From Methylocapsa sp. S129 (lineage in GTDB: Bacteria; Pseudomonadota; Alphaproteobacteria; Rhizobiales; Beijerinckiaceae), in the NCBI RefSeq assembly GCF_009765995.1, contig NZ_LMUI01000007.1, positions 1 to 48,181 on the forward strand: a stretch of DNA of 48,181 nucleotides, read 5' to 3'. The position numbers and the translations under genes were made by a program. Below, piece after piece: positions 16,162-31,759 of the stretch. The notes below the pieces were generated by a model. The model made no database searches, had not been told where the DNA came from, and saw nothing but the letters and a program-made list of their open reading frames with translations. Every line of letters starts with the position of its first letter. Position 1 is the first letter of the stretch.

Positions 16162-16800
16162 TCAGGCCTCGGCGCTGTGAAGCCAATTGGCGCGCAGACC
16201 GACATAATCGTCGCCGCTCGGCTTGTCAGCCACGACCTGGAGGGCCCGGCGCGACTCGGCGAACGCGACAACCTGCGCGCCGACGAGCGCGAGTTGCGCC
16301 TTGAGGTCGGGATTGACGCAGACGCCCTGGTCGAATGCCGCTTCCGAACTATTGAGACTGACGCCAAAAGGCGTCGGCCAACCGCGCAACGCATGCACGA
16401 TCGACCGCAAAGCCGCGAGCGTCGAGCCCGTCGCTTGCCAACCCGCCGCGCAGGCGATGCAGCCGACGGCGCGTCCGTCAAAATACGGCTGCGGATCGTT
16501 GCGCATATCTTCGGTGTAATCCAACGCGTTCTTGATCAATCCGGAAATCGAACCGTGATAGCCGGGCGAACTGATGATCACGCCGTCGGCTCTGCGAAGA
16601 CTGGCGATGAGGGCGAGAGCTTCCCCGCTGCGTTCGGGGCGTTCAGGCGCGAACAGAGGCAGCAGCAGACTCTGGCCGGCGAAGATTTGCGTTCGTGCGC
16701 CGAGAGCCTCGGCCCCCGCCAACGCGATCCGCAGGGCGGTTTCCGAAGACGATCCGGGGCGGGTGGCGCCGCCGATCCCGACAATCAACAGATCGCGCAC
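16162..16800 (-). CDS. NAD(P)H-dependent FMN reductase
   Basis: A 212-residue flavodoxin-like reductase that uses NAD(P)H to reduce FMN. Signature parts are VGIGGATRPGSSSETALR at the start (phosphate-binding loop) and SPGYHGSISGLIKNALDY in the middle (flavin-binding loop; family form SPxYxGSxxGxLKNAxDW). The GTG at 16800 follows GGAGAGG; the frame extends to 16854, but those residues are Arg-rich and atypical. It lies 197 bp past the double-SDR gene with an inverted repeat in between, so it has its own promoter. It is a plausible source of reduced FMN for the luciferase-like monooxygenase encoded at 24390-25703. Confidence 0.85.
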   Translation of the reverse strand: MRDLLIVGIGGATRPGSSSETALRIALAGAEALGARTQIFAGQSLLLPLFAPERPERSGEALALIASLRRADGVIISSPGYHGSISGLIKNALDYTEDMRNDPQPYFDGRAVGCIACAAGWQATGSTLAALRSIVHALRGWPTPFGVSLNSSEAAFDQGVCVNPDLKAQLALVGAQVVAFAESRRALQVVADKPSGDDYVGLRANWLHSAEA

Positions 16801-16946
16801 TTTCCCTCTCCTTCGTCTCAAGACTATGAGGCTCAATCGCTTGCGAGCCGCCAAAACGGTCTTCGTGGCTCTTCCGCTTGATCGAAGTTCGCCATCGAGC
16901 GTCGATGACGAGAGAGAGTATTCGCTATCGATTGTCGCGCATATCC

Positions 16947-16974
16947 GTGATGCAAACTATCACATCTGTAAATT
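16947..16974 (-). promoter_or_regulatory. Candidate operator upstream of the FMN reductase gene
   Basis: GTGAT (16947-16951) and ATCAC (16959-16963) form an inverted repeat with a 7-bp spacer. The right half continues as TCACATCTGTAAATT, resembling the sites at 25797 and 26677. A role for the cluster's IclR-type regulator is inferred. Confidence 0.4.
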
Positions 16975-16997
16975 CGTGGCGGGTGGGCCTGGAAAGA

Positions 16998-18563
16998 CTA
17001 TCCTTCCGAGGCGTCGCCGACGGCGCCGAACGCTGTCCATCCGCCATCGACAAAAAGAGTGGTCCCCGCGATATAGGACGCCGCGTCCGATGCGAGAAAG
17101 GCGATCGCATCCGCAATATCCTCCGGGCGCCCGAAATCGCCCATCGGAATCCGCTTGCGGATCGCGATGGCGTCGATCTTGCCCGAGGTTTCAAGCGCGG
17201 CGACGCCGGGGGTTTTGATATAGCCGGGCGCGACCGCCACGACGCGGATATTGTCCGACGCGAGTTCGGCCGCCATGCATCCGGTCAGATTGATGAGAGC
17301 CGCCTTCGACGCGCTATAGGCGTTGCGTGGCGACAACGGCAGGCTCCCGGCGATCGAAGCCAGATTGACGATCACGCCGCCGCGCCCGGCCATCGCCTTG
17401 ACCGCCTCACGGGCGCACAGCATCGCGCCTGTGAGATTGACGTCGATGACACGGTCGAACTCGGCCTTGCTCTGGTCGAGCGTCGGTTTGAAACTGTCGG
17501 CGATGGCGGCATTGTTGACGAGGAGATCGATCGCGCCGAAATCCCGCGCAACCGCCGCGAAGGTCGAGACGACGGCGGCTTCGTCCGTGACGTCGACTTG
17601 GTAATCCCTGTGTCCATCGCCCAGATCTCGGGCGGCCGCCGCCACGCCCGCCGCGTCCTGGTCCGCCAGGGCGAGCTGATAGCCCTCCTTCGCGAGGCGC
17701 GCCGCGACGGCGCGGCCGATGCCGCGCGCAGCGCCCGTCACGAGCGCCACGCGTCGGAACGGCCGATGCGAAGGCAGCGCCAACTCTTCCGGCGGGATTG
17801 TCGCCGCGTCGGAAGCGGCGCCAGCGGCGTTGAAAGCCTGCCAACCGCCGTCTACGACAAGTGTCGCGCCGGTGACATAGCGTGCGCGATCGGACGCGAG
17901 AAAGCGGATCGCATTGGCGATCTCGTCCGGCCGGCCGATGCGTCCCATGGGGATTCGGCGGCGCACCGCCATGAGGTCCGCCAGTCCTTGGCGCTCGAGA
18001 TCGGCGACCATGGGAGTGCGGACATAGCCCGGCGCGACCGCGCAAACGCGAACGCCAAAACGCGCCCATTCAACAGCCAGCGCGCGCGTCAACGAAATCA
18101 CGCCGGCCTTTGAGGCGGCATAAGCGTTGCGCTTCGGATTGGGAAGAATGCCGGCGAGGGACGCCGTGTTGACGATGATTCCGCCGCCATGGCGCGTCAT
18201 GAAGCGGGCCGCCTCGCGCGCCATAAGGAAGGGGCCGCCGAGATTGACCGCGAGAGTCCGGCGGATCAACGCCGCCGACATCGCCGCCGTCGCGGTCATC
18301 GTCGGCCCCAGCGCGGCATTGTTGACGACGACATCCAGGCGGCCAAATTCGGCTGTCACCTTTTCCATCAACCCGACGACCGCTTCTTCCGACGCAATGT
18401 CGCAGCCAAGACCGCGATGGGCGTCGCCGAGGTCCGACGCGAGCGCTTCGACCGCCGCCCGATCAAGATCGATCGCAATGACGCGATCGCCCGCTCGCGC
18501 GAATGCGTCGCAAATCGCGCGGCCGATGCCGCCGGCGGCGCCGGTCACAAGGATGATGCGCAT
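16998..18563 (-). CDS. Double short-chain dehydrogenase/reductase (two SDR domains in one chain)
   Basis: A 521-residue protein made of two complete classical SDR domains. Domain 1 (1-250) has TGAAGGIG from T7, Ser135, Tyr148 and Lys152 (YAASK). Domain 2 (270-521) has TGAARGIG from T276, Ser403, Tyr416 and Lys420 (YSASK). Both keep NNA and the PGY..TP segment, so both look catalytically competent NAD(P)-dependent alcohol/ketone oxidoreductases. A linker of about 20 residues joins them. The ATG follows AAAGGAAATCGA. It is the last gene of the leftward operon, 43 bp after the SnoaL-like gene. It may perform two successive oxidations or stereochemical inversion of an alcohol; the substrate is unknown. 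Confidence 0.9.
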   Translation of the reverse strand: MRIILVTGAAGGIGRAICDAFARAGDRVIAIDLDRAAVEALASDLGDAHRGLGCDIASEEAVVGLMEKVTAEFGRLDVVVNNAALGPTMTATAAMSAALIRRTLAVNLGGPFLMAREAARFMTRHGGGIIVNTASLAGILPNPKRNAYAASKAGVISLTRALAVEWARFGVRVCAVAPGYVRTPMVADLERQGLADLMAVRRRIPMGRIGRPDEIANAIRFLASDRARYVTGATLVVDGGWQAFNAAGAASDAATIPPEELALPSHRPFRRVALVTGAARGIGRAVAARLAKEGYQLALADQDAAGVAAAARDLGDGHRDYQVDVTDEAAVVSTFAAVARDFGAIDLLVNNAAIADSFKPTLDQSKAEFDRVIDVNLTGAMLCAREAVKAMAGRGGVIVNLASIAGSLPLSPRNAYSASKAALINLTGCMAAELASDNIRVVAVAPGYIKTPGVAALETSGKIDAIAIRKRIPMGDFGRPEDIADAIAFLASDAASYIAGTTLFVDGGWTAFGAVGDASEG

Positions 18564-18606
18564 TCGATTTCCTTTCCGGGCGCGCGCCGCAAAGCCGCGC
18601 CGCGCC

Positions 18607-19140
18607 TCAGCGCTGGGCGGTCATCTGCGCGAGCAAGTCGTAATAAGGATCGTGAGGTTTGGCCCCGCCTTGCGGCTTGCGCACGCCGAAACGCTCGCTT
18701 TCTTCGCTTTTTGGAGCGCCAGACTCATGAATCCAGTCGTAGACGACGGTGCGCGCAGCGACTCGCCACTCATCGCCGCGCTTCTCGAATCGGTCGACAT
18801 AGCGGCCGGCTAGAAACACTTCGATGTTCCTCCCCGAGGCGTCCGGGCCGCGCTGCAACGCCGAGAAATAGGATTCGACCGCGGCGACCGATCCCGACAG
18901 CGCGATTGCGATGTTGCCGATCATATGAACGCTGCGTTCGCTCTTCTTCAGCGCCGCCAGCGCCCAGGCGATGAAACCTTCCGCGGAGCCGCTGTAGGGG
19001 CCGTGCCGGTCGGTCGCGTCAGGCCAATAGGACGCGCGCAGCGCCTCTTCGTCCTGACGGTCGATTCCCCGGCAATAACGGAACAGGCACTCGCGTATCG
19101 CATCCTTGTCGAGAAGGGCTTGAACGGCAGGATCGGTCAT
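18607..19140 (-). CDS. SnoaL/NTF2-fold protein (SnoaL_4-like)
   Basis: A 177-residue protein with the NTF2-like cone fold: the N-terminal helix block DKDAIRECLFRYCRGIDRQDEEALRASY is typical of SnoaL_4 proteins, followed by SVHMIGN.AI and a C-terminal strand pair (RYVDRFEKRGDEWRVAARTVVYDW). The fold includes ketosteroid isomerase, limonene-epoxide hydrolase, LinA-type dehydratases and the small subunits of ring-hydroxylating dioxygenases. The residues shown do not settle which activity applies. It sits 30 bp after the ADP-forming acyl-CoA synthetase gene in the leftward operon, suggesting isomerisation, dehydration or hydration of a pathway intermediate. Confidence 0.8.
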   Translation of the reverse strand: MTDPAVQALLDKDAIRECLFRYCRGIDRQDEEALRASYWPDATDRHGPYSGSAEGFIAWALAALKKSERSVHMIGNIAIALSGSVAAVESYFSALQRGPDASGRNIEVFLAGRYVDRFEKRGDEWRVAARTVVYDWIHESGAPKSEESERFGVRKPQGGAKPHDPYYDLLAQMTAQR

Positions 19141-19170
19141 GTCGATAATCCCTCGAGGAATGAGCAGTGT

Positions 19171-21318
19171 TCACACGCCGGACAAAAGGCTGGGCGTCGA
19201 GTCAAGCGGAGCGGTCACAATGAGCGCGTCGAGCGCGACGACTCCCTCGCCCCGGGACCGCACGAGAACAGGATTGAGATCGACGCTCAACACGTCGTCG
19301 CGATGGGCGGCCGCGAAGCGGGAAAGCGCTGCAAGCGCATCGGCCAGCGCGTCAATGTCCGATGGCGGCATGCCGCGCACGCCTTCCAGCAAGCGGTAGC
19401 CCCTGATGTCCCGGATCATGCGATGGGCTTCGGCCTTATCGAATGGGGCGACGCGGAAGACGACGTCCTTGAGCGCCTCGACGAAGATTCCGCCAAGGCC
19501 GAACATCACCACCGGGCCGAATACCGGATCCCGGCTCGTCCCGATGATCGTTTCGACGCCGTCTTTCAGCATGGGCGCAACGAGGACGCCATCGATGACG
19601 GCGTCTGGCCGCGCACGCCTGGCGCGATCGAGAATTAAAACGGCCCCGGCGCGCACTTCATCCTCGCCGCCAAGGTCGAGCAGCACGCCGCCGATTTCTG
19701 TTTTATGTGGGATGTCGGCGGAGGCGATTTTCAGCGCGACTGGCCAGCCGATTTCGCTGGCGAATTGAGCCGCTTCCTCGGGCGTCTTCGCCAGCGCCTC
19801 TCGCGGGAACGGGACGCCGGACTCGGCAAGCACGATCTTGGCTTCGCTCTCGCCGAAGCGCCGGCCTCGCAGACTCGCCGCCGCGCGTTCGATGACGGGA
19901 TATTCGGACTCAGCGACATCAAAGCCTTGGCCGATCTGGATGAGCGCGGCGAGGGCGTTGACCGCACTATGCCCGTCCTCGAAGATCAGAAAGCCTTTCT
20001 CTTCATAAGAACGAACGACGTCGCGGGGCGCCGATATCGTGAGGACGAGAAGACGATCGGAAAAGCCGGCGATCGCCGCTTCGAGCGCGCCGCGCAGAGG
20101 CGCTGAGAATGTCGGGCTGGCGGGGGTGCTGCCGAAAATGCCGACGATCGCGTCATAGCCGCCCCTTTCCAGCATCATCGTGAGATAGCGGCTCATAAGC
20201 TTCAGATCGGTGAGCGCCTGCGCCGTGGCATCGACCGGGTTTCTCGGCGATGCGTAGGGCAACAACGCTTTCAGCTCCGCCTGCGCTTCCTCAGACATCG
20301 GCGCGACATCCAGACCCGCATCGGCGGCGGCGTCGGCCATCTGGATGCCGAAACCTCCCGAAAGCGTAAAGATGCCGAGCCGGTTGTGTTTGGGATAGAC
20401 GCCTCGCGCGCAGGCATAGGCGATGTCGATCTGTTCGGCCGTCGTGCGCGCGCGATAAACATTGAACTGTCGAAATACGGCGTCATAGACATTGTCCGAG
20501 CCCGTCAGCGCCGCGGTATGCGACTCCGCCGCCTTGGCGCCGACCGCCGAGCGGCCGACTTTCATGAAGATCACCGCTTTGCGGTTCCGCCGCGCGAGCG
20601 ACAGCGCTTCGAGAAAGATTGCCGGTTGCTTGATCCCTTCGGCATAGGCGAGGATGACGCTGACATCGGGCCTCCCGGCCAACCAGAGCAAGCCTTCCGC
20701 GACATTGACGTCGGCTTCATTGCCGGTCGTCAGGAAATAGCGGATGCCAAGCCCGCGTTCGCCCGCGAGATGCGCGACATGCGAGCCATAGGCGCCGCTT
20801 TGCGAGACGATCGCCACCGGTCCGGGCTTCGGCAGGCCGCCGTCGAGAATTTGCGAGAACGTGCCATAGAAGCCGGTCTCCGCATTGAAGGCCCCGAGGC
20901 AATTGGGGCCGAGCAGCCGCACGCCATATCCGCTGGCGACGTCTGACAGCCGCTTCTGCAAGGCGATTCCCTCTTCGCCCGTCTCGGCAAAGCCTGCGGA
21001 AAATATGATCGCCGCCTTGGCGCCGCGTTCACCGCAAGCTTGCAAAGCGCCGAGAACATGGGCGGAGGGCACGGCGATCAATGCGATGTCGGGCGCCTCC
21101 GGAAGATCCCTGACGCTCGCATAGGCCTTCAGCCCCTGCGCTTCGGCGCGGTTGGGATTGACCGGATAGATCGCGCCGCGAAAGCCGCTTTCCCGGAGAT
21201 AGCGCAGCGGCCGGCCGCCGATCCGCGCCGGATCGTCCGAAGCGCCGACGATCGCCACGGAGCCCGGCAGAAAGAAACTGTCGAGACTTGCCGGCGAGCG
21301 CGGGTAAGGGGCGTTCAT
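19171..21318 (-). CDS. ADP-forming acyl-CoA synthetase (acetate-CoA ligase family)
   Basis: A 715-residue NDP-forming acyl-CoA ligase with both subunits fused. An N-terminal CoA-binding domain (PGSVAIVGASDDPARIG) is followed by a succinyl-CoA-ligase-like domain carrying the phosphorylated His (H267 in ESHTAALTGSD) and a C-terminal ATP-grasp domain from about 490 (GWPVALKIASADIPHKTEIGG). It would activate a carboxylic acid to its CoA thioester with formation of ADP and phosphate. The start at 21318 forms ATGA with the SMP-30 stop, so translation is coupled. The frame is open to 21591, but that overlaps the neighbour. Sitting next to a lactonase, it may activate the released hydroxy acid. Confidence 0.9.
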   Translation of the reverse strand: MNAPYPRSPASLDSFFLPGSVAIVGASDDPARIGGRPLRYLRESGFRGAIYPVNPNRAEAQGLKAYASVRDLPEAPDIALIAVPSAHVLGALQACGERGAKAAIIFSAGFAETGEEGIALQKRLSDVASGYGVRLLGPNCLGAFNAETGFYGTFSQILDGGLPKPGPVAIVSQSGAYGSHVAHLAGERGLGIRYFLTTGNEADVNVAEGLLWLAGRPDVSVILAYAEGIKQPAIFLEALSLARRNRKAVIFMKVGRSAVGAKAAESHTAALTGSDNVYDAVFRQFNVYRARTTAEQIDIAYACARGVYPKHNRLGIFTLSGGFGIQMADAAADAGLDVAPMSEEAQAELKALLPYASPRNPVDATAQALTDLKLMSRYLTMMLERGGYDAIVGIFGSTPASPTFSAPLRGALEAAIAGFSDRLLVLTISAPRDVVRSYEEKGFLIFEDGHSAVNALAALIQIGQGFDVAESEYPVIERAAASLRGRRFGESEAKIVLAESGVPFPREALAKTPEEAAQFASEIGWPVALKIASADIPHKTEIGGVLLDLGGEDEVRAGAVLILDRARRARPDAVIDGVLVAPMLKDGVETIIGTSRDPVFGPVVMFGLGGIFVEALKDVVFRVAPFDKAEAHRMIRDIRGYRLLEGVRGMPPSDIDALADALAALSRFAAAHRDDVLSVDLNPVLVRSRGEGVVALDALIVTAPLDSTPSLLSGV

Positions 21319-22205
21319 GTCGATTCCTTGAGCGAGGCGAAGCGCAGTCGCGCTTCCGGCAATCCGCATACGCCGAGCCCTTCGATCGCGAGAAGCGCGC
21401 CGCCGTCCGGGACTTGCGAGACTGCGCGCCCTGAGCCGGAATCCTTGATCGAGGTGACATAGAGAACGTCCAGATCGCCGCCGCCAAAGGCCGGGCATGA
21501 CGGCAGATCGACAGGCAGGTCGATCAAGGCCTCGACGGTCCCCCGCGGCGAGACGCGCGCCAACCGGCCAACCTGCACAAGCGCCACCCACAGGAAACCC
21601 TCCGCGTCGACGGTTGCGCCATCCGGACCCGATCCGAGCGGCTCCGTATCGAGGAAGACGCGAGGGGGACCCACCCGTTCGCCGGCGGGCTCATAGTCGA
21701 AGGCCAGAATCTGTCGGCTCAGGCTGTCGGCAAAATACATCACATCGCCGGCGGGACTGAAGCACAGACTATTGGCGATGCGGACGCCTTCCACCAGACG
21801 ATCCGTCCCGCCCTCCGGGCGGAGGCGATGAAGAACGCCGAGCGGCTCGGCATGGAGGCCCATGCTGCCGCAGAGGAATCGCCCGGAACGATCCATCTTG
21901 CCGTCGTTGAAGCGAATGCGCGCGTCTGGAGGTTCAGCGCGCCACAGCAGGGTGATCTCCGCGCTGGCCAGGTCGAGGAGATGAAAGCCGTCCCGCAGCG
22001 CGAGAATCAGCCGGCCTTTGTCAGCAAGGCCGATGGAGCCGACCCAGCTTGGCGTCGACCACGAATGCTCGACTCCCGACGCCGGGTGATAGGAACGCAC
22101 CATCGACCGCACCGTGTCGACCCAGAACAGCGTCGCGGCGTCCGGATCCCATAGCGGGCTTTCGCCCAATAGAGACGGGCCGAGGTCGAGCTTGCTGATC
22201 TGCAC
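21315..22205 (-). CDS. SMP-30/gluconolactonase/LRE family protein (probable lactonase)
   Basis: A six-bladed beta-propeller hydrolase. Metal-binding residues of the family are present in order: Glu in LLGESPLWD, Asn in RFNDGKMD, Asn in IANSLCFSP and Asp in GPDGATVDAEG. Characterised members hydrolyse sugar and other lactones. The GTG at 22205 gives 296 residues, the usual length, starting just before the first strand; an ATG at 22262 would add 19 poorly conserved residues. The stop overlaps the next gene's ATG. In this operon it would open a lactone made by the upstream monooxygenase, which is inference from context. Confidence 0.85.
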   Translation of the reverse strand: MQISKLDLGPSLLGESPLWDPDAATLFWVDTVRSMVRSYHPASGVEHSWSTPSWVGSIGLADKGRLILALRDGFHLLDLASAEITLLWRAEPPDARIRFNDGKMDRSGRFLCGSMGLHAEPLGVLHRLRPEGGTDRLVEGVRIANSLCFSPAGDVMYFADSLSRQILAFDYEPAGERVGPPRVFLDTEPLGSGPDGATVDAEGFLWVALVQVGRLARVSPRGTVEALIDLPVDLPSCPAFGGGDLDVLYVTSIKDSGSGRAVSQVPDGGALLAIEGLGVCGLPEARLRFASLKEST

Positions 22206-22302
22206 GTGGGTGTTCCGGAGGTTTTGGCTAGAGGATGGATCGTCGCCGGTGCAGGCGGTCATTCCCGAAAGAAAGCGCCTGTCGGCACGGCGAAGAATTC
22301 GT

Positions 22303-23544
22303 TCAAATCCGTTTCAGCAATGGGCAGACGCTTTCACTCGCCGGCCGCCAGGCCTCTTCGGCCGGGATCGTGCTTTTGATCGCGTAATAATCGTAGGGGT
22401 ATTTTGAATCTTCCTTCGCCTTCACCTCGGCCAGATACATCGGCCGCATCACCTGGCCATCCTCGCGAATGCGCACGTCCTTCATCGAGAAATCGTTGAT
22501 CGGCAATTCATGCATCTTCGCGACGACCGCCGGGCCGTCCGTGCCGCCCGCCGCCTCGACCGCTTTCAAATAATGCGTGACCGCGCTGTAAGTCCCCGCC
22601 TGCGCCTCGTTGGGAACTCGGCCGTTAAAGGCCGCCATGAAGCGCTTGGCGAAAGCGCGCGTCCCCTCATTCTGATCCCAATAGAACGGCGTCGTCAGTG
22701 TCAGACCTTTCGCCATATCCAGGCCCAGCGCATGCACCTGGTTGATGTAGAGCCCGAGAGGCGCGAGCGTCTGTCCGCCCTGCGTGATCCCGAATTCATG
22801 CGCCTGCTTCACGGCATTGTTGAAATCAGCCCCGGAATTGGCGAGCGCGATGACTTTGGCGCCGCTGTTCTGCGCCATGAGCAGAAAGGACGAGAAATCG
22901 GCCGTGTTGAGCGGATGGCGCACCGAACCGACGACGCGCCCGCCGGCCTGGCTGATAAACCGCGTCGTGTCGGCTTCCCATTGCTTGCCGAAAGCGTAAT
23001 CCACCGTGACGAAGAACCACGTGTCCTTGCCTTGCTTCACCAAGGTCTGCGCCGTCGCCTTCGGAAGCGAATAGGTGTCGATGACCCATTGCTGTCCCAT
23101 CGGAGAGCAGGCGCTGTTCGTCAGTTCGGAACTCGCCGTTCCCGCGAGCAGGTAGGGCTTGCTATGCTGCTTCATCAAATCCTGAGTCGCCAGCGCGATG
23201 GAAGAGGCCGAGCCGCCGACGATCACATCGACGCCGTCCGCGTCGAGCCAACGCCGCGCGGCCGCCACGCCTATATCAGGCTTGTTCTGATCGTCAGCCA
23301 CCAGCAGTTGGATCGCCTTGCCGAGCACGACGCCGCCACGGTCCTCGATCGCCATACGGGCCGCGAGCGCGGAGCCGGGGCCGCCGTTGTCGGCGTAGGG
23401 GCCTGACTGGTCGGCGATGACGCCAATCTTGACGACGCTTGAGGCCGTCTGCGCCAAGGCCCTGGGCATGGCCGCCGCCACGAGCGCAGAGCCGCCTAAA
23501 GCGAGAAGGCCGCGCCGGTGAAGCATTGCAAAGTCGAAATTCAT
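22303..23544 (-). CDS. Branched-chain amino acid-type ABC transporter substrate-binding protein
   Basis: A 413-residue periplasmic ligand-binding protein of the LivJ-like (Peripla_BP_6) class. The N-terminus has HRRGLLALGG and a hydrophobic stretch ending ALAQ, so it is exported, possibly by Tat because of the twin Arg. Family strings include KIGVIADQSGPYADNGG, LLVADDQNKPD and WFFVTVDYAFGKQWEAD. GGAGGAGGAAACA precedes the ATG, a very strong site. No permease or ATPase genes are in the window, so it either serves a transporter encoded elsewhere or acts as a sensor. Its place inside the catabolic operon suggests that it binds the pathway substrate. Confidence 0.9.
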   Translation of the reverse strand: MNFDFAMLHRRGLLALGGSALVAAAMPRALAQTASSVVKIGVIADQSGPYADNGGPGSALAARMAIEDRGGVVLGKAIQLLVADDQNKPDIGVAAARRWLDADGVDVIVGGSASSIALATQDLMKQHSKPYLLAGTASSELTNSACSPMGQQWVIDTYSLPKATAQTLVKQGKDTWFFVTVDYAFGKQWEADTTRFISQAGGRVVGSVRHPLNTADFSSFLLMAQNSGAKVIALANSGADFNNAVKQAHEFGITQGGQTLAPLGLYINQVHALGLDMAKGLTLTTPFYWDQNEGTRAFAKRFMAAFNGRVPNEAQAGTYSAVTHYLKAVEAAGGTDGPAVVAKMHELPINDFSMKDVRIREDGQVMRPMYLAEVKAKEDSKYPYDYYAIKSTIPAEEAWRPASESVCPLLKRI

Positions 23545-23624
23545 TGTTTCCTCCTCCAGGATTTTCCGGCAGATCTTCGCCGCCTTTTTGTCGATCAGAG
23601 ATGTCCGGCGCGCTCAGCCGCATG

Positions 23625-24383: not shown

Positions 24384-24389
24384 AGCCGG

Positions 24390-25703: not shown

Positions 25704-25789
25704 GCGTTTTCCTCTGAGGTCTCATTCTTGTTTCGGAGGGAAACTGCCACCCGGGCGACTTGCGCGGCAACGAATTTTTATGGATGGAT

Positions 25790-25830
25790 GTGATTATCAC
25801 GTATGTGGATATTCCTTTCGCGGAAGAATC
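25790..25830. promoter_or_regulatory. Candidate operators between the monooxygenase and IclR genes
   Basis: GTGATTATCAC (25790-25800) is a perfect inverted repeat around a central T. It runs into TCACGTATGTGGATATT, similar to the sites at 16960 and 26677. GGATATTCC and GGAAGAATCC form a second, imperfect inverted repeat just beyond. The position between divergent genes suits autoregulation by the IclR-type protein. Confidence 0.45.
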
Positions 25831-25853
25831 CGAACCGGCGGAGTTGGGCGTCC

Positions 25854-26630
25854 ATGGGAATTCTGGCGGTTAAATCGGCCGCGCGCGCAATCGAGGTCCT
25901 CGAATGTTTCGGCGCGGCGCGTGAGCCGAAATCGTTGAAGAGCATTTGCGAGATGCTGCGCTATCCCCAGTCCAGCACGAGCGTGTTGTTGAAGACGCTG
26001 ACGGTGATGGGTTATCTGAACTACGATCGCCGGCGGCGCGTCTATTTCCCCACCCTGAAGGTCACGGCGCTCGGCGACTGGGTGCCGCAGGCCTTGTTCG
26101 GCAACGGCCGCGCGCTGGAGGCGATGCGCGACGTTCACAGCGCCACGGGCGAGACGGTCTCGATCGCCGTCAAGAACGACATCTATTTTCAATATATCAA
26201 GGTCATCCAGTCGATGCATGCGCTGCGGTTCCATGTCAGCGAGGGTACGATGCGTCCGTTGACCCAGTCGGCGGTCGGTTGGCTGCTGATGTCGACGTTG
26301 AAGGGCGACGATCTCGACAATGTCATTCGCAGGGCCAATATCGCAGCGGGCAAAGCGGAGGCAGTGAAAGTCCCGGCGATGGTCGCGACGGTGGCGCAAG
26401 CGCGGCGGCAGGGTTACGCTTCAGCGGAGAACGTGCCGTTCCTGGGCGGCGCCACGCTCTGCGTGCTGCTGCCCATGACCATCCAGGGCCAGCCGGTTGC
26501 GCTGGGCCTAGGTGGTTCGCTGGAGCGCATCCGCGCCAACCGCACGCGTTATCTCGCCGCCTTGAAGCGCTGCGCCAGAGAACTGCGCGGGATCGGCGGG
26601 GGCGAGTTGGGATTCGACATCGAATTTTAG
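25854..26630 (+). CDS. IclR family transcriptional regulator
   Basis: A 258-residue regulator with an N-terminal winged helix-turn-helix (VKSAARAIEVLECF..KSLKSICEMLRYPQSSTSVLLKTL) and a C-terminal effector-binding IclR domain (..GETVSIAVKNDIYFQYI.., ..AVGWLLMS..). Members bind pathway metabolites and repress or activate nearby catabolic operons. The ATG at 25854 opens directly before the helix-turn-helix; 25803 is possible, but it lacks a ribosome binding site and overlaps the operator-like repeats. It lies between the two arms of the cluster, divergent from one and in line with the other, and is the natural candidate to control both. Confidence 0.88.
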   Translation: MGILAVKSAARAIEVLECFGAAREPKSLKSICEMLRYPQSSTSVLLKTLTVMGYLNYDRRRRVYFPTLKVTALGDWVPQALFGNGRALEAMRDVHSATGETVSIAVKNDIYFQYIKVIQSMHALRFHVSEGTMRPLTQSAVGWLLMSTLKGDDLDNVIRRANIAAGKAEAVKVPAMVATVAQARRQGYASAENVPFLGGATLCVLLPMTIQGQPVALGLGGSLERIRANRTRYLAALKRCARELRGIGGGELGFDIEF

Positions 26631-26676
26631 GCCGCAGACGGCTCGCGCGCCCTCCCTCGCAATCGCCCTGACGAAT

Positions 26677-26692
26677 TCACATATGAAATATT
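26677..26692 (+). promoter_or_regulatory. Candidate operator before the acyl-CoA synthetase operon
   Basis: TCACATATGAAATATT resembles the sequences at 25797 and 16960 (shared core TCAC(A/G)T(A/C)TG followed by an AT-rich run). It lies 73 bp before the synthetase start. Common control by the IclR regulator is inferred. Confidence 0.4.
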
Positions 26693-26764
26693 GTCCATCA
26701 CGGGTTTACGCCGACGGGGCTGCCGATGGAATGTCCCCGCCGATAAGCAAAAAAGGGAGGAAGC

Positions 26765-28432
26765 GTGCTTGGATTGATGCAGCAACGGCCGCTTCTGGTT
26801 TCGTCTTTGCTCACCTATGCGGAGACCTATCATTCCGACACGGAGATCGTTTCGCAGACCGCCGAAGGCGCTCTTCACCGCTACGATTATCGCGCGCTCG
26901 GCCTGCGGGCGCGCCGTCTCGCCAACGCCCTGATCGGGCTCGGCGTGAAGCCCGGCGACCGGGTCGCGACGCTCGCCTGGAACGGCCACCGGCATCTCGA
27001 ACTCTATTTCGCGATTTCCGGCATTGGCGCGGTTCTGCATACGATCAATCCGCGCCTGTTCGGCGACCAGATCGAATATATCGTCAACCATGCGGAAGAC
27101 AGCGTCATCTTCTTCGATCCCTCGTTCGCCCCGCTTCTGGAAGGCCTAGCGCCAGACCTGCGCGGTGTGAAGGGCTATGTGGCGCTCACGGACGCCGATC
27201 ATATGCCGGCGACCGCTTTTGGCCCGCTCCACTGCTATGAAGAATTAGTCGCAGCCGCGTCCGACATCTATCAATGGCCGAGCTTCGACGAAAATACCGC
27301 TTCGTCGCTTTGCTACACATCCGGCACCACCGGCAATCCCAAAGGCGTTCTCTACAGCCACCGCTCGACCGTGCTGCACGCCTTTTGCGCCTGCGCGCGC
27401 GATGGCTTGAGCCTGTCGAGCCGCGACAGCGTCATGCTGATCGTGCCGCTGTTCCATGTGAACGCCTGGGGCATTCCCTACGCCGCGGCGATGTGCGGCG
27501 CCAAGCTCGTGCTGCCCGGCCAGGCGCTCGACGGCAAGAGCGTGTTCGACCTGATGGTCGCCGAGGGCTGCAATTTCTCGCTCGGCGTGCCGACCGTCTG
27601 GTTGAACTTCTTCCGCTATGTCGAGGAAACGCCGGGCCTGCCTTTGAACGACGTGCGTCTCGATCGGGTGGTCATCGGCGGTTCGGCGGCGCCGCGCGCG
27701 GTGATCGAAAAATTCCACAGGCTGTTCGGCGTCTTCGTCATCCATGCCTGGGGCATGAGCGAGACGAGCCCTCTGGCCACCATCGGCAACCTCCTGCCCA
27801 GGCACCGCGATCTCTCGACGGCTGAAACCGTCGACATCCAGGTCAAGCAGGGGCGCGCGATCTATGGCGTCGAACTCAAGATCGTCGACGCCGGCGGCGC
27901 CAAACTCGCCCACGACGAGGCCGAATCCGGCGATCTCCTGGTTCGCGGACCCTGGGTGACCGCCGGCTATTTTCGCGACGAGGGCGGCGACATCCTCGAT
28001 CAGGACGGATGGTTTGCGACCGGCGATGTTGCGAAGATCGACAGCGACGGCTTTGTTCGCATCACCGACCGTTCCAAGGACGTCATCAAATCGGGCGGCG
28101 AATGGATTTCATCCATCGATCTCGAAAACGTCGCGGTCGGCTGTCCGGGCGTCGCGGAGGCGGCCGTCATCGGGATGAAGCACGACAAGTGGCAGGAACG
28201 CCCGCTGCTGATCGTCGTTCGCAAGCCAGACGCCGAAGCCGACAAAGCGGCGATCCTCGCCTTTCTCGCCGGCAAGATACCGAAATGGTGGATGCCGGAC
28301 GATGTCGTCTTCGTCGACGAATTGCCGCACACAGCCACCGGCAAACTGCAAAAAATGAAGCTGCGCCAGCTTTTCGCCGACTATTCCCTGCCGCAAACGC
28401 GTGACCAGACCCGCGCAACGGCGACTGGCTGA
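26765..28432 (+). CDS. AMP-forming acyl-CoA synthetase (fatty-acid--CoA ligase type)
   Basis: A 555-residue adenylate-forming enzyme activating a carboxylic acid through an acyl-AMP intermediate. The phosphate-binding motif [11 protein letters not shown] starts at Tyr184; further core motifs are [35 protein letters not shown] and the catalytic Lys in HTATGKLQK. It resembles medium/long-chain FadD or AlkK-type ligases. The GTG start has a textbook AGGGAGGAAGC site. It heads the rightward operon with two acyl-CoA dehydrogenase genes and an enoyl-CoA hydratase-family gene. Together with the ADP-forming ligase of the other arm, the cluster has two activating enzymes of different chemistry. Confidence 0.9.
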
Positions 28433-28499
28433 GCGGCGATAGGCGGCCGCCGCGCCGCGCGGTCGCCCATCCTGCGCGCCACAGAATTCGGAGGATCGA

Positions 28500-29630
28500 A
28501 TGCCCCAGGTTGCGTTGCGTGACGAGGATGGCGCGCTCGCCATTTTGCGCGATAGCGTCGCCGCCTTCGCCAGACAGAACCCGGGGCCGGCTCGGCTGCG
28601 TCTTCTGCGCGGCAAGGGCGGCATGAACCAAGCCGTCTGGCGAAAGATCGCCGAAGCCGGCTGGATCGGGCTTCTCGTGTCCGAAGAGGCCGGCGGACCC
28701 GGCCTCTCCGTCCGGGAGCAGGTTGTGGTTTCAGAGTCGCTGGGCGGCGAACTCGCGCCCGAGCCCTATGCGATGCTCTCCGTCTTCGCGCCGGCTGTCC
28801 TTAGTGCTTGCCCAGCCTCGCCGCGGCGGGAGCTTTTGCTCACGGGCGCGATATCAGGCGAGCGCCTTGTCTCGGTCGCGTGGCAGGACAGGCGCGGCGG
28901 GCGTGAAATGACGGCGAAAGAGGACGCTTCGGGCGAATGGATCCTCGACGGCGAGAAAGCTTTCGTCGAGGCGGCCGGCGACGCGACAGACTTGCTCGTC
29001 GTCGCCTCGCATGGCGCGCAGACTTGTCTATTCGCCGTCGACCCATCCTCTCCAGGCGTCACAATCACACAGCGCGCCGGCGTAGACGGCGGCGCGCTAT
29101 CCAACATCGCGTTCCACGATGTCAGAATCGGACAAGATCGGAAGCTTGCCGTCGCGCCATCGGCCGGCGCCCTGCTCGACCAGGCGCTTGCGCGGACCCG
29201 CCTGGCGATCGCCGCCGAGCTTGCCGGGCTCGCGAACAAAGCCCTCGAAATCACCGTCGAATATACCCGGCAGCGCGTGCAGTTCGGCAAACCGATCGCC
29301 AGTTTTCAGGTCATCCAGCATCGCCTCGTCGATATGTGGATGCAGGCCGAGCTCGCAAGCGCCGCGGTGCGCAATGCGGCCGAGCTCTGCGTCGGAAATA
29401 GCGAAGCGGCGGCCGCTAGCACAGCGATTCTGGCGGCCAAGGCGCGCGCCAGCGACGCCGCCTCGATGATTTGCCGCAACGCGATCCATCTGCACGGGGC
29501 GATGGGCTACACCGACGAATGCGACATCGGCCTCTATCTCAAGCGGGCGATCAATCTTGGGGCGCTGCTCGGCAATGCCGACGCGATGCGCCGCCTTTTC
29601 ATCGAAAACAATTCTCATCCGCGTCACTGA
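28500..29630 (+). CDS. Acyl-CoA dehydrogenase, probable non-catalytic-type subunit of a pair
   Basis: A 376-residue acyl-CoA dehydrogenase-fold flavoprotein: N-terminal helical part, a middle beta domain (SVAWQDRRGG..) and a C-terminal helical bundle with TRQRVQFGKPIASFQVIQHRLVDM and HLHGAMGYTDE. The usual terminal EGT or GGTNEIQR segment is replaced by LGALLGNADAMRR. Its best explanation is one half of a heteromeric (alpha2-beta2) dehydrogenase with the product of 30416-31573, as known for steroid-degrading FadE pairs in actinobacteria. GGAGGATCGA precedes the ATG. It would introduce a double bond next to the CoA ester. Confidence 0.85.
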   Translation: MPQVALRDEDGALAILRDSVAAFARQNPGPARLRLLRGKGGMNQAVWRKIAEAGWIGLLVSEEAGGPGLSVREQVVVSESLGGELAPEPYAMLSVFAPAVLSACPASPRRELLLTGAISGERLVSVAWQDRRGGREMTAKEDASGEWILDGEKAFVEAAGDATDLLVVASHGAQTCLFAVDPSSPGVTITQRAGVDGGALSNIAFHDVRIGQDRKLAVAPSAGALLDQALARTRLAIAAELAGLANKALEITVEYTRQRVQFGKPIASFQVIQHRLVDMWMQAELASAAVRNAAELCVGNSEAAAASTAILAAKARASDAASMICRNAIHLHGAMGYTDECDIGLYLKRAINLGALLGNADAMRRLFIENNSHPRH

Positions 29631-29642
29631 ATCGGGAAAGCC

Positions 29643-30413
29643 ATGGAACAGCTCATCAAACGTGAAATCGTCGACGGCGTCGCCATCGTCACGATGGACG
29701 CGCCGCCGGTCAACGCCCAATCGCGGCCCTTCATGGAACAATTGACGACCTGCTTTGACGAGATCAACGACCTGCGCGAGGCGCGCGTCGTCGTGCTCAC
29801 CGGCAAGGGAAAAATCTTCTCCGCCGGCGCCGACATCAAGGCGCGGATGCAAGGCCATCCCAATCCCGGCGACACTTACGCCCACATGCGCCGCGTGCGG
29901 GAATCGTCGAACAGCATCATGGAATGCAACAAGCCGGTCATCGCGGCGATAAATGGGCCCGCGCTCGGAGCGGGACTAGGCCTCGCAATCGCCTCGGACA
30001 TTCTCATCGCCTCGGAGAACGCCACGGTCGGCCTTCCCGAAATCGATGTCGGCCTGATGGGCGGAGCGCGCCATGTCATGCGGCTGTTCCCGCATTCCAT
30101 CGCGCGCGAAATGATCCTGACGGGTCGGCGCATTTCCGGCCCCGAACTCTACCGTCTCGGCATCGTGTCGGCCTGCGTGCCGCTGGAGGAGCTGATGAAC
30201 GCCGCCATGGCGATGGCGCGCAATATGGCGCGCAAGAGCCCGGTCGCCTTGCGCCTCGCCAAACGCGCCATCAACACGGTGGAGACGATGGGATTGCGCG
30301 AGGGCTATCGCTTCGAACAGAATCTCACCGCCGAAATCACCAAGCACGAGGATTCCAAGGAGGCGATGCGCGCCTTCGTCGAGAAGCGCGAACCCGTCTT
30401 CAAGGACCTCTAG
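29643..30413 (+). CDS. Enoyl-CoA hydratase/isomerase family protein
   Basis: A 256-residue crotonase-fold protein. The oxyanion-hole segments FSAGADIK (59-66) and NGPALGAGLGLA (104-115) are present. The first catalytic Glu of classical hydratases is Gly113 here, while the second is kept (E133 in GLPEIDVGLMGG). That pattern suggests an isomerase, a C-C bond hydrolase or lyase, or another crotonase reaction rather than standard hydration. The ATG lies 12 bp after the first dehydrogenase stop; the stop is 2 bp before the next start, so the genes are cotranscribed. The substrate is presumably the enoyl-CoA made by the flanking dehydrogenases. Confidence 0.88.
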   Translation: MEQLIKREIVDGVAIVTMDAPPVNAQSRPFMEQLTTCFDEINDLREARVVVLTGKGKIFSAGADIKARMQGHPNPGDTYAHMRRVRESSNSIMECNKPVIAAINGPALGAGLGLAIASDILIASENATVGLPEIDVGLMGGARHVMRLFPHSIAREMILTGRRISGPELYRLGIVSACVPLEELMNAAMAMARNMARKSPVALRLAKRAINTVETMGLREGYRFEQNLTAEITKHEDSKEAMRAFVEKREPVFKDL

Positions 30414-30415
30414 GG

Positions 30416-31573
30416 ATGGCCGAGGACCTCAACGATCTCACCGACGAGGAATTTCGTCGCGTGTTCGTCGCATGGGTGGACGCCAATTGTCCGCCGGCGT
30501 TGCGGCGCCTGCGCAAGCAACGCCCGCTGTTCGACGAAGTGAAGGACTGGTATCTCGCATTGTCCCGGAAGGGATGGCTGGCGCCGACTTGGCCGCGCGA
30601 ATATGGCGGCATGGGCCTCTCCCCCGCCAAGCACATGGTCTATGTCGAGGAATGGGGCCGGCTCGGTTGCCCGCGCATTCCCGATCACGGCGTCGGCCTC
30701 GTCGGGCCGCTACTGATCCGGTTCGGAACGGTCGAACAGAAGGCCGCCTATCTCCCGCGGATCCTCACTGGCGAACACGTCTGGTGCCAGGGCTATTCCG
30801 AACCCAACGCCGGCTCCGATCTCGCCAGCCTGCGCACGGAGGCTTTGCTCGACGAGGACGGTTTCGTCGTGACCGGGCAGAAAATATGGACCACGCTCGC
30901 CAATTGCGCGAACTGGATTTTTGTTCTGGTACGGACCGACAAGATCGCCAAATCCCGCCAGCAAGGCATCAGCGTGCTTCTCGTCGACATGACCTCGCCC
31001 GGCGTGCATGTGCGCCCGATCCCCAACATTCGCGGCGAGGAGGAGTTTTGCGAAGTCTTCTTCGATCAAGTGCGGGTTCCGCGCGAGAATCTGGTGGGGG
31101 CGCTCAACGATGGCTGGACGCTGGCCAAATCGGTCCTCGGCCACGAGCGTATTTTCCTCGGCGCCCCGACCCGCGCGGAATATGCGTTGAGCCGGCTCGA
31201 GACCCTGGCGCGCGAACTCGGCGCATTCGGCCAAGCCGATTTCGACGCGCGCTATGCGCAACTCCGGTTGGACATCTATGACCTTGCCTCGGCCTTCGAG
31301 CGCTTCGCGGATGTGGTGCGGTCGGGCGGCGAACTCGGCCCCGATGTCTCGATGCTCAAAATCTTCGCCACAGAGCTTTATCAGCGGATCACCGAGGAGA
31401 TGATCCGGATCGCCGGCGACGAAGCGCGCTTCTTCGAAGACATCGTCATCGGCGGCGAGGCGATCGACGCCATGAATCTATTCCTCGATTCGCGCGCGCC
31501 GGCGATTTTTGGCGGGTCCAACGAAATCCAGCGCAATATTCTCGCCAGGGCGGTGCTGCGCCTCCCCGGCTAG
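30416..31573 (+). CDS. Acyl-CoA dehydrogenase, FadE-like
   Basis: A 385-residue FAD-dependent acyl-CoA dehydrogenase. It has WPREYGGMGLSP near residue 60, the flavin/substrate segment CQGYSEPNAGSDLASL (124-139) and the C-terminal FGGSNEIQRN. The Glu of the medium-chain enzymes (YEGT) is Gly here, but E244 in LGHERIFLGA falls where isovaleryl-CoA and long-chain enzymes place their base, so it is the candidate catalytic residue. It starts 2 bp after the hydratase-family stop. With the gene at 28500 it probably forms a heteromer, which suits bulky or branched acyl-CoA substrates. Confidence 0.9.
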   Translation: MAEDLNDLTDEEFRRVFVAWVDANCPPALRRLRKQRPLFDEVKDWYLALSRKGWLAPTWPREYGGMGLSPAKHMVYVEEWGRLGCPRIPDHGVGLVGPLLIRFGTVEQKAAYLPRILTGEHVWCQGYSEPNAGSDLASLRTEALLDEDGFVVTGQKIWTTLANCANWIFVLVRTDKIAKSRQQGISVLLVDMTSPGVHVRPIPNIRGEEEFCEVFFDQVRVPRENLVGALNDGWTLAKSVLGHERIFLGAPTRAEYALSRLETLARELGAFGQADFDARYAQLRLDIYDLASAFERFADVVRSGGELGPDVSMLKIFATELYQRITEEMIRIAGDEARFFEDIVIGGEAIDAMNLFLDSRAPAIFGGSNEIQRNILARAVLRLPG

Positions 31574-31665: not shown

Positions 31666-31759
31666 TGGCGGAGACGGAGGGATTCGAACCCTCGATAGGG
31701 CTTTACAACCCTATAACGGTTTAGCAAACCGCCGCCTTCAGCCTCTCGGCCACATCTCC
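31666..31759 (-). tRNA. tRNA-Ser (GCU anticodon)
   Basis: Reading from 31759 leftward: the acceptor arms GGAGATG and CGTCTCC pair fully (one G-U), the anticodon stem-loop CGGTTTGCTAAACCG exposes GCT, a long variable arm (TATAGGG/CCCTATC-like pairing) marks a class II tRNA, the T arm is GAGGGTTCGAATCCCTC, and CCA is encoded (31666-31668). It reads AGC/AGU serine codons. Its 3' end faces the catabolic cluster. Confidence 0.97.

Follow-up and report, generated by a model that had tools for sequence, protein, structure and literature searches.

The locus of Methylocapsa sp. S129 discussed here raises the question of whether the genes that flank an IclR gene on both sides, as two divergent arms, form a single catabolic system and, if so, what kind of compound that system would degrade. 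We consider it reasonably probable that they constitute an IclR-controlled catabolic regulon in which a luciferase-like monooxygenase, LLM1, would catalyze a Baeyer-Villiger-type step on a ring-like substrate. In the window (i.e., the whole stretch of DNA analysed, 48,181 nucleotides long), a frame check combined with Pfam/NCBIfam searches found 13 open frames without internal stops (Table 1); the two-arm gene set of the preliminary description is thus intact for all 13 genes, with families as stated there. The ATGA coupling that it reported is also present, the stop of the SMP-30 gene overlapping the start of the ADP-forming ligase at 21318-21315 on the minus strand. Of the gene starts, that of the ADP-forming ligase was corrected to 21318 (715 aa) from the upstream GTG at 21591 and that of ACAD2 to 30416; the gene caller also suggests possible starts at 16800 for the FMN reductase (instead of TTG 16854) and at 25854 for IclR (instead of 25803). 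The gene models in the loci of relatives derive from the gene caller with a pooled model.

Table 1. Genes and operator-like sites of the cluster (positions in the window).
Feature	Position	Strand	Evidence or location
NAD(P)H:FMN reductase	16162..16854	-	PF03358 FMN_red 1.1e-23
Operator-like site 3, TTTACAGATGTGATAGT, 3 mismatches	16956..16972	-	double SDR/FMN reductase gap
Double short-chain dehydrogenase (double SDR)	16998..18563	-	NCBIfam PRK06484 674.1 bits (below 713 cut-off); both YxxxK sites
SnoaL_4/NTF2-fold protein, dehydratase- or isomerase-like	18607..19140	-	Pfam; fold matches
ADP-forming acyl-CoA ligase	19171..21318	-	Pfam; PDB 8wzu 1.7e-110; ESHTA at residue 265
SMP-30/gluconolactonase-family lactonase	21315..22262	-	Pfam SGL 3.3e-72; GESPLW, RFNDGK, SGPDG motifs
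Periplasmic binding protein, Liv-type ABC importer	22303..23544	-	Peripla_BP_6 1.2e-101
Short-chain dehydrogenase (SDR)	23625..24383	-	Pfam
LLM1, luciferase-like FMN monooxygenase, 437 aa	24390..25703	-	PF00296 2.7e-45
Operator-like site 1, TCCACATACGTGATAAT, 1 mismatch	25793..25809	-	IclR/LLM1 divergent promoter
IclR-family regulator	25803..26630	+	Pfam IclR_C and HTH_IclR
Operator-like site 2, TTCACATATGAAATATT, 3 mismatches	26676..26692	+	IclR/AMP-ligase gap
AMP-forming acyl-CoA ligase	26765..28432	+	NCBIfam PRK07008 824.5 bits (cut-off 822); PDB 6ihk 3.8e-179
ACAD1, acyl-CoA dehydrogenase subunit lacking Glu at the presumed catalytic position	28500..29630	+	nearest chain 6wy8_A (Tcur3481)
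Enoyl-CoA hydratase/isomerase family protein (crotonase)	29643..30413	+	NCBIfam PRK06495 391.7 bits (cut-off 296)
ACAD2, acyl-CoA dehydrogenase subunit in which the GHER Glu is conserved	30416..31573	+	nearest chains 4x28_A, 6wy9_A

That the cluster is one system under IclR, as had been claimed, is supported by a 17-bp operator-like motif that occurs three times in the window against 0.02 expected, a count reached in 0 of 100 shuffles. The three sites fall exactly in the three promoter gaps of the cluster, including that of the FMN reductase, so that a predicted shared operator is found at 3/3 target promoter gaps of the proposed IclR regulon. The pattern was partly defined from site 1; sites 2 and 3 played no part in defining it. 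It has eight matches in the 6.87 Mb of the genome, three of them in the cluster, against one for the backward-read control, and control loci gave two matches in 1,182,750 bases. Related gaps in three relatives (L023, L024, and L025, see below) also carry it: the gap before the AMP-forming ligase in L024 (one mismatch) and L025 (three mismatches) and, as a weaker match with four mismatches (15805-15821), the double SDR/FMN reductase gap of L023. With up to four mismatches allowed, it was not found in the IclR/LLM1 gap of L024 or in L158, L159, L161, and L162. The 13 genes are probably switched on together, and regulation by the cluster's own IclR seems plausible. The transcription units would be three: LLM1 to double SDR, FMN reductase, and AMP-forming ligase to ACAD2.

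The preliminary description proposed a search for the same gene order in other genomes. A scan of genome contigs with the luciferase-like protein gave 584 matching stretches that encode a relative, of which 80 (58-95% identical) were kept, and in 3 of these 80 loci (L023, L024, and L025), i.e., in three other Alphaproteobacteria, the genes from LLM1 through to the double SDR stand in the same succession beside a divergent IclR gene. L023 has a relative of the FMN reductase (77% identical) at the equivalent place and its right arm is exchanged for unrelated ligase/crotonase genes. In L024 and L025 a PF01613 flavin reductase, non-homologous to the PF03358 FMN reductase of the window, lies between the SnoaL and double SDR genes (the L025 copy is 70% identical to that of L024). 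Elsewhere the LLM1 family occurs in quite different gene contexts; Bradyrhizobium homologues that are 77-81% identical have no cluster genes adjoining them (neighbours viewed in L027). The LLM alignment comprised 42 of the 80 scanned loci, six further genome-search loci, and the window, and excluded L035 (in-frame stop), L100, L103-L105, and the second LLM proteins of L024 and L057; one L076 protein was left out of the family scan. A second luciferase-like protein, LLM2, is present in L024, L025, and L163 (a plasmid version discussed below), and an LLM2-like protein is the sole luciferase-like match in a Variovorax paradoxus stretch (L162). No LLM2 orthologue was found in the genomes of the window and L023, where other LLM genes exist (best full-length matches 30 and 28%). 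Where LLM2 is present, the Baeyer-Villiger role may belong to it.

Luciferase-like monooxygenases are very numerous and their reaction is mostly unassigned. LLM1 belongs to this family (PF00296, 155.5 bits against a cut-off of 27.9), and its AlphaFold model (pLDDT 87.3) matches RslO1 and luciferase chains in Foldseek. The nearest solved structure in both PDB profile and Foldseek ranks is RslO1 (7bip), a proposed epoxidase (PMC8093152). Diketocamphane monooxygenase (4uwm) follows only with E = 1e-5, as 28th of 35 PDB matches and at Foldseek rank 44, and SsuD/SfnG/NtaA-type chains score far below RslO1 and luciferases in the PDB profile. Judged from these profile ranks, LLM1 is not a close relative of type II Baeyer-Villiger monooxygenases of the diketocamphane type. 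The luciferase-like family given earlier for LLM1 stands; the preliminary description had named a phylogenetic placement with non-Baeyer-Villiger enzymes as evidence against itself, and profile and fold ranks come near to this, with RslO1 and luciferases being closest. Genomic linkage provides a candidate flavin reductase partner for LLM1, namely the PF03358 gene, which has an operator-like site of its own; in L024 and L025 the PF01613 gene would take this place.

The strongest argument for a Baeyer-Villiger step is the apparent exchange of LLM1 for type I Baeyer-Villiger monooxygenase (BVMO)-like proteins. A Pseudosulfitobacter plasmid carries a collinear, IclR-linked version (L163) with the order ECH-ACAD2-LivFGHM, divergent IclR (52%), SDR-PBP-SMP30-ADPlig-SnoaL-flavin reductase. 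Neither LLM1 nor the double SDR occurs in this 22.2-kb stretch, which encodes a 543-aa protein with the type I BVMO fingerprint GGVWYWNRYPG; the BVMO could, therefore, stand for either or both of them. Related sets on two betaproteobacterial plasmids (Comamonas, L159, and Variovorax, L161) likewise have a type I BVMO-like protein and no LLM1, the three BVMO-like proteins being 66-79% identical. We take FxGxxxHxxxWP and [AG]GxWxxxx[FY]P[GM]xxxD to be the fingerprints of type I BVMOs. The Variovorax SRS16 protein possesses both, with the canonical FKGRLIHAARWP (Pfam FMO-like 6.8e-15), while those of Comamonas and Pseudosulfitobacter (2/3 BVMOs) have the second and carry Arg for His in the first; the best NCBIfam model for the Comamonas protein is PtlE, at 286.6 bits below the cut-off of 1100. 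LLM1 is absent from four whole plasmid records (plasmids only), which have either no luciferase-like match or one that reaches at best 26-33% identity. Conversely, no close relative of the exchanged BVMO was found in the genomes of the window (best 28%) and L023 (best 32%). The L024 genome contains, outside the cluster, a BVMO that is 67% identical to the Variovorax and 77% to the L163 protein, and further relatives of 37 and 39% occur in the L024 and L025 genomes. Because related sets carry a type I BVMO-like protein without LLM1, the Baeyer-Villiger step is supported, and the earlier succession from alcohol via ketone, lactone, and hydroxy acid to acyl-CoA gains some comparative support. In related bacteria the same ring cut seems to be the work of an altogether different enzyme, and such a natural exchange in a conserved set offers a direct way to assign the reaction of a luciferase-like subfamily; Aquibium carbonis, Pseudosulfitobacter pseudonitzschiae, and Variovorax are named strains in which the proposal can be tested. 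In two sequence searches, Variovorax PBL-E5 appeared as a near copy of SRS16. Bradyrhizobium plasmids encode a binding protein of 66% identity, and the one viewed has no cluster around this gene. A stretch of Novosphingobium RL4 matches the ADP-forming ligase, SDR, and crotonase, with no match for SMP-30, the binding protein, or SnoaL.

Among the other enzymes, the SMP-30 protein retains the motifs GESP, RFNDGK, and SGPDG, which we take to be metal-site residues, and the Asn of its IANSLCF stretch, identical in 4/4 aligned sequences. In the acyl-CoA dehydrogenase alignment, ACAD2 has GHER in 3/3 sequences, and ACAD1 lacks Glu in 3/3 at the column presumed to hold the catalytic Glu. Since the nearest structures of the two proteins include both partner chains of 6wy8 and of 4x28, ACAD1 and ACAD2 are predicted to form a heteromeric acyl-CoA dehydrogenase, of the kind that accepts bulky substrates. 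The ADP-forming ligase (ATP-grasp_5 1.5e-71) carries ESHTA, presumably the phosphohistidine motif, and resembles a DMSP lyase (7cm9) as well; 6ihk, matched by the AMP-forming ligase, is assumed to be a 3-(methylthio)propionyl-CoA ligase. The fold of the SnoaL protein (model pLDDT 74.3, built from four sequences) matches LinA, bile-acid 7-alpha dehydratase, and scytalone dehydratase.

These data also bear on other readings. It is rather unlikely that, within the same regulon, the reaction of LLM1 is a different oxygenation, i.e., an epoxidation or hydroxylation of the type suggested for RslO1 and MsnO8; the lactone would then arise elsewhere in the pathway, or a sugar- or ester-like bond would be the target of the SMP-30 protein. 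The proximity to RslO1 would fit this, as would the dehydratases and dehydrochlorinases in the SnoaL fold search and the joint presence of LLM1 and LLM2 in L024 and L025, which means that two different oxygenations may exist; the type I BVMO-like genes in sets without LLM1, however, speak against it, as do the window and L023 genomes, which have LLM1 without an LLM2 orthologue. A non-ring substrate, with LLM1 turning an acyclic ketone into an ester or cleaving a C-S or C-N bond like SsuD, SfnG, and NtaA, appears improbable: such enzymes do belong to the LLM superfamily and both ligases have relatives in methylthiopropionate or DMSP metabolism, but their chains rank far below RslO1 and luciferases, 0/13 genes are of a sulfur- or amine-handling family, and a lactonase-family gene lies inside the operon. 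It seems more improbable still that broad-range catabolic genes became neighbours by chance and do not form one pathway. The exchanged right arm of L023 and the multi-copy families in the genome (19 LLM and 35 LivM-type matches) would allow for it, yet the order is kept in four genomes and in L163, and both the coupling of two genes by ATGA and the agreement of the three operator-like sites indicate a unit.

Other candidate functions were rejected. A mycofactocin-coupled dehydrogenase beside an LLM family in Alphaproteobacteria, hinted at by a Streptomyces plasmid, is not supported by the SDR (125 bits, the cut-off being 300), and mycofactocin models gave no match at E <= 1e-25 among the other genes tested. 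For N-heterocycle ring cleavage, a molybdenum hydroxylase subunit adjoins LLM homologues that are 58-72% identical and in other contexts, with none in the window cluster. Regarding DMSP or methylthiopropionate use, the AMP-forming ligase is barely above the PRK07008 cut-off and no other gene of that pathway was recognised in the cluster.

For the IclR-controlled regulon with a Baeyer-Villiger-type step, we infer the following substrate class, order of steps, and reactions. The substrate would be a carboxylated compound, probably alicyclic or terpenoid-like, which the periplasmic protein would capture and a Liv-type permease encoded elsewhere in the genome would bring into the cell; no permease genes adjoin the binding-protein gene in the cluster, and LivFGHM relatives occur elsewhere in the same genome (L120). 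SDRs may oxidize a secondary alcohol to a ketone, after which LLM1, supplied with FMNH2 by the FMN reductase, would insert oxygen beside the carbonyl to yield a lactone that the SMP-30 protein could open. The product might then be reshaped by the double SDR together with the SnoaL-fold protein, the latter as a dehydratase or isomerase; one or both ligases would activate it with CoA, and the heteromeric acyl-CoA dehydrogenase and crotonase would shorten it via beta-oxidation.

Searches of the open-licence literature for the gene set and for its parts yielded no described pathway that has this combination of genes, in agreement with the earlier statement that none could be named. The cyclohexanol/cyclohexanone route (chnABCDE) shares the logic of SDR, Baeyer-Villiger monooxygenase, and lactonase, and uses a type I BVMO and a lactonase of other families where the window has a luciferase-like enzyme and an SMP-30 protein. 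Camphor degradation encoded by the CAM plasmid of Pseudomonas putida follows the same logic as proposed here, i.e., a dehydrogenase producing a ketone, an FMN-dependent two-component luciferase-like monooxygenase, ring opening, and CoA activation (PMC6352141). LLM1 is, however, remote from diketocamphane monooxygenase, and the window cluster differs in lacking a P450 and in carrying genes for a lactonase, an ADP-forming ligase, a Liv-type binding protein, and IclR, to which the FMN reductase gene is linked. For luciferase-like FMN/F420-dependent monooxygenases of SAR202, a role as type II BVMOs acting on alicyclic compounds was proposed (PMC5395668); that proposal concerns families of paralogues and derives from genome annotation, whereas here a defined regulon and an exchange pattern with type I BVMOs are at hand.

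The SnoaL and double SDR pair is also common to an operon of rhizobial symbiotic plasmids with the order P450-ferredoxin-NTF2-double SDR-LLM. Its SnoaL/NTF2 protein is 53-56% identical to that of the window over six symbiotic rows, its double SDR 50 and 55% (L106 and L107), and its LLM2 is homologous to LLM2 of L024 and L025. In contrast to the window, where both YxxxK sites are present, the second SDR site is degenerate in 5/7 rhizobial proteins, and the seven stretches viewed contain no lactonase, ligase, or beta-oxidation genes. What appears to be the same operon in Mesorhizobium loti R7A (msi332-331) is NifA2-dependent at its head, with a reported NifA/RpoN promoter (PMC3538637) where the window cluster has IclR. 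No published function for the symbiotic operon genes was found in the literature searched, and the link to the window cluster provides a chemical hypothesis for them. Speculatively, and with a likelihood that we consider low, the pathway could serve a plant or algal ring-bearing keto acid (e.g., a jasmonate-type cyclopentanone oxylipin or a terpenoid keto acid), the place of ring cutting being taken by a luciferase-like enzyme plus reductase or by a type I BVMO, while rhizobia would have recruited its SnoaL-double SDR-LLM module to symbiotic operons under NifA, where it would modify the same kind of molecule in nodules.

A tRNA-Ser gene (31666-31759) lies just past the right end of the cluster; no 15-mer of this region is repeated in the window, as might mark an island boundary. 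A tRNA-Leu gene occurs near lipB in 6/6 relatives examined, out of 12 genomes (other or own) with a lipB match.

All 13 genes of the cluster are present on the strands claimed, lack internal stops and belong to the families given in the preliminary description (Pfam/NCBIfam), and the ATGA junction between the genes for the SMP-30 lactonase (SMP30) and the ADP-forming ligase (ADPlig) is indeed found in the sequence. The leftward operon, running from the luciferase-like FMN monooxygenase (LLM1) through an SDR, a periplasmic binding protein (PBP), SMP30, ADPlig and a SnoaL-fold protein to a double SDR, has short intergenic distances (6, 80, 40, -4, 30, and 43 bases), with the FMN reductase set off from the double SDR by 143 bases, while the rightward genes for the AMP-forming ligase (AMPlig), the acyl-CoA dehydrogenases ACAD1 and ACAD2 and, between these, the crotonase-family protein (ECH) are spaced by 67, 12, and 2 bases. 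A tRNA-Ser(GCT) (31666-31759) sits at the cluster's right edge, not far from lipB, whereas tRNA-Leu(GAG) is found near lipB in the six same-family relatives examined.

The gene-order search proposed earlier was successful. A scan of genome contigs confirmed at least 584 relatives of LLM1 and 80 loci were kept, several with short flanks; three of the 80 (see table) possess the complete leftward order and a divergent IclR gene. Two of these, from Mesorhizobium (L024) and Aquibium carbonis (L025), also carry AMPlig-ACAD1-ECH-ACAD2, followed by four ABC-transporter genes (two of the four Pfam-checked, in L024) and IclR, a flavin reductase of HpaC type flanked by SnoaL and double SDR (PF01613 in L024; a 70% relative in L025), and a second luciferase-like protein (LLM2). 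The Hyphomicrobiales locus (L023) has kept the FMN reductase (77%); its other arm consists of an unrelated ligase and crotonase. The system is rare: of 385 sampled Alphaproteobacteria genomes, the window's own was the only one with a hit for the double SDR at E <= 1e-110, and also the only one for the SMP-30 protein at E <= 1e-75. Since relatives of the Liv-type permease LivFGHM (64, 63, 62, and 49%) occur with two binding proteins on another contig of the window genome, we infer that the window's binding protein may share this permease.

Table. Related loci and operator-like sites.
Feature	Source or location	Position	LLM1 identity
Leftward block, L023	Hyphomicrobiales MAG		95%
Leftward block, L024	Mesorhizobium MAG		84%
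Leftward block, L025	Aquibium carbonis		84%
P450-(ferredoxin)-NTF2-double SDR-LLM operon, L106	Rhizobial symbiotic plasmid, beside nif/nod genes	9851-15083	
Same operon, L107	Rhizobial symbiotic plasmid, beside nif/nod genes	7446-13053	
Same operon, L115	Rhizobial symbiotic plasmid, beside nif/nod genes	4995-9768	
Operator-like site 1	Window, IclR/LLM1 gap	25793-25809	
Operator-like site 2	Window, IclR/AMPlig gap	26676-26692	
Operator-like site 3	Window, double SDR/FMN reductase gap	16956-16972	

Homologues of LLM1 also occur in other settings. Those of Bradyrhizobium species (L026-L036; 77-81%) lie outside any such cluster; one (L027) is flanked on one side by nucleotide-sugar epimerase/dehydratase genes and another (L035) has an in-frame stop. 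In 15 of 79 loci (e.g., L047:4858-11257) an LLM1-family gene is located <6 kb from a member of a ~779-aa family; the two members scanned are molybdenum hydroxylase subunits. Frequent companions are a TetR-type gene, an SDR and a ~342-aa protein that had no match in Pfam (1e-8) or NCBIfam (1e-25). A ~256-aa protein of a single family directly follows the LLM1 homologue in six loci (e.g., L038:9983-12070, L040:10001-12081, L043:2716-4796); Pfam assigns the L040 member to carboxymuconolactone decarboxylase. A haloarchaeal plasmid (Halomarina sp. BCD28, L103:12001-13218) encodes a 57% homologue, with genes of the AMP-binding and acyl-CoA dehydrogenase families close by.

When SnoaL and PBP were traced in plasmids, versions of the cluster with a different oxygenase came to light. 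Pseudosulfitobacter pseudonitzschiae H46 (L163) has ECH (64%), ACAD2 (61%), LivFGHM (63-73% to L024) and a divergent IclR (52%), and on the other side of IclR an SDR (67%), PBP (55%), SMP30 (50%), ADPlig (58%), SnoaL (53%) and flavin reductase (51% to L024), followed by a 543-aa FAD/NAD(P) protein and, on the opposite strand, LLM2 (61%) and a flavin reductase. Its ECH-to-LivG part, at the record start, may be a broken copy, because no gene is listed there and the LivF match is split into three pieces. The same families as in the window were found in Variovorax SRS16 (L158, L161) and Comamonas antarctica (L159), with identities of 65/61% (SnoaL), 60/53% (PBP), 65/62% (AMPlig), 57/53% (SDR), 48/49% (SMP30) and 44/43% (ADPlig), respectively; no IclR is among the annotated regulators in the stretches seen. 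The FAD proteins of these three organisms are 66-79% identical to one another, and all contain the fingerprints GGVWYWNRYPGxRxD and FxGxxx[HR]xxxWP, the latter with Arg at the variable position in Comamonas and L163 and with His in Variovorax. Both members scanned are FMO-like by Pfam, and for the Comamonas protein the top NCBIfam model is PtlE (pentalenolactone D synthase), a type I Baeyer-Villiger monooxygenase (BVMO), with 286.6 bits against a cut-off of 1100; we refer to the three FAD proteins as BVMO-like, or BVMO for short. LLM1 was not found in four whole plasmid records, where the top luciferase-like matches were 32, 33, and 26%, with none in Comamonas. The 30.5-kb stretch of Variovorax paradoxus SPNA7 (L162) matched SMP30, LLM2 (48%), flavin reductase (27%), ACAD2, ACAD1, ECH, ADPlig, SDR and SnoaL; BVMO, PBP and AMPlig gave no hit there.

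Among the stretches examined, which are a sample and no census, four of the eight versions found have LLM1 without the BVMO, three have the BVMO without LLM1 and one has LLM2 only. However, this is not a clean rule of exchange: BVMO and LLM2 co-occur in L163, as do LLM1 and LLM2 in L024 and L025, and in L163 the double SDR is missing along with LLM1. Furthermore, the L024 genome encodes a BVMO outside the cluster (67%; 77% to the L163 protein), with no cluster genes beside it in 19.5 kb, only two weak LivF-like matches; further relatives occur in the L024 (37%) and L025 (39%) genomes. The interpretation in the preliminary description was partly upheld. LLM1 gives a good structural model (pLDDT 87.3). 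In the profile search its best solved match is RslO1 (7bip, 5e-39), with luciferases next; diketocamphane monooxygenase (4uwm) is 28th of 35 (1e-5) by profile and 44th by Foldseek. We therefore do not class LLM1 among the diketocamphane enzymes, and the case for a Baeyer-Villiger step is built on the lactonase together with the exchange pattern. RslO1 is a proposed epoxidase partnered by a flavin reductase (PMC8093152).

A motif in the IclR/LLM1 gap of the window recurs beside the IclR-LLM1 pairs of L023, L037, and L057. The consensus TTCACATAYGTGATAAT, for which the window site and those of L037 and L057 were used, matched the window three times at <=3 mismatches (0.02 expected; none of 100 shuffles reached three); site 1 helped to define the pattern, whereas sites 2 and 3 are independent of it. 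The whole genome contains eight matches, three of these in the cluster, compared with one for the pattern read backwards, and control loci gave two per 1,182,750 bases. Matches also occur in the corresponding gaps of L023 (6606, two mismatches; 15805, four mismatches), ahead of AMPlig in L024 (616, one mismatch) and in L025 (596 and 9840, three mismatches each). None was found in the IclR/LLM1 gap of L024 at <=4 mismatches or in L158, L159, L161 and L162, and L163 has a single weak match (four mismatches) adjoining IclR. From these sites we read the three units, including that of the FMN reductase, as one predicted IclR regulon. In L057 (Sterolibacteriaceae MAG) one of the pattern-defining sites lies between IclR and the LLM1 homologue (70%), and nearby are genes for a second LLM, an SMP-30 protein, an amidohydrolase and two proteins of which one is AtuA-like and the other has a CoA-ligase domain.

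The double SDR also has relatives in rhizobia: 19 plasmid records (13 Rhizobium, 6 Sinorhizobium) matched at E <= 1e-100, and 66 with the Mesorhizobium amorphae protein as query. All seven regions examined that have a full double SDR (L106, L107, L115-L119) combine it with the SnoaL-fold protein NTF2 and LLM2, and a full P450 is present in five (a fragment in L117) and ferredoxin in three; in an eighth (L160, S. meliloti M270) NTF2 is annotated along with two pieces of SDR. Nearby are nif genes (L107, L115, L119), rpoN (L107, L116, L118) or nodD2 (L106), none of which was found around L117. For the P450 fusion msi332::lacZ of M. loti R7A, PMC3538637 reports 446.6, 273.5, and 14.6 units in three columns that we take for the wild type and the nifA1 and nifA2 mutants, and it lists TTGGCACGACTTTTGAA as the promoter; as listed there, it is identical to the promoter ahead of the operon in L118. 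With the expression used, a sigma-54-like site directly precedes the P450 gene unit in L118 only; L115 and L119 have one before nifQ, upstream of transporter and P450 genes, L119 has an extra one between P450 and NTF2, and none was found ahead of the unit in L106, L107, L116, and L117. In the double-SDR tree, which has a distant outgroup and an uncertain root, L024 and L025 group with the symbiotic copies (94/92) and the window with L023 (98/97). In five of the seven symbiotic copies (L106, L115, L117, L118, L119) the Tyr-x-x-x-Lys pair is missing from the second SDR site, and the four catabolic clusters keep it in both domains. Searches of open-licence papers turned up no function for the symbiotic operon.

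The SMP-30 motifs are kept in four of four cases, and the acyl-CoA dehydrogenase pair has a one-active-subunit pattern in three of three; its closest PDB chains include partners of heteromeric enzymes that act on steroid side chains. For SnoaL, a model of moderate confidence (pLDDT 74.3) matches LinA, scytalone dehydratase and bile-acid 7-alpha dehydratase, in agreement with a dehydratase or isomerase. As suggested earlier, no description of the pathway was found when the open-licence literature was searched for this gene set, its parts, the symbiotic operon and SAR202 enzymes. We regard the regulon as genuine; in its logic it resembles a degradation route from ketone to lactone to CoA ester, with an unusual oxygenase. 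The window genome has a wide catabolic repertoire; it contains 19 luciferase-like and 35 LivM-type matches.
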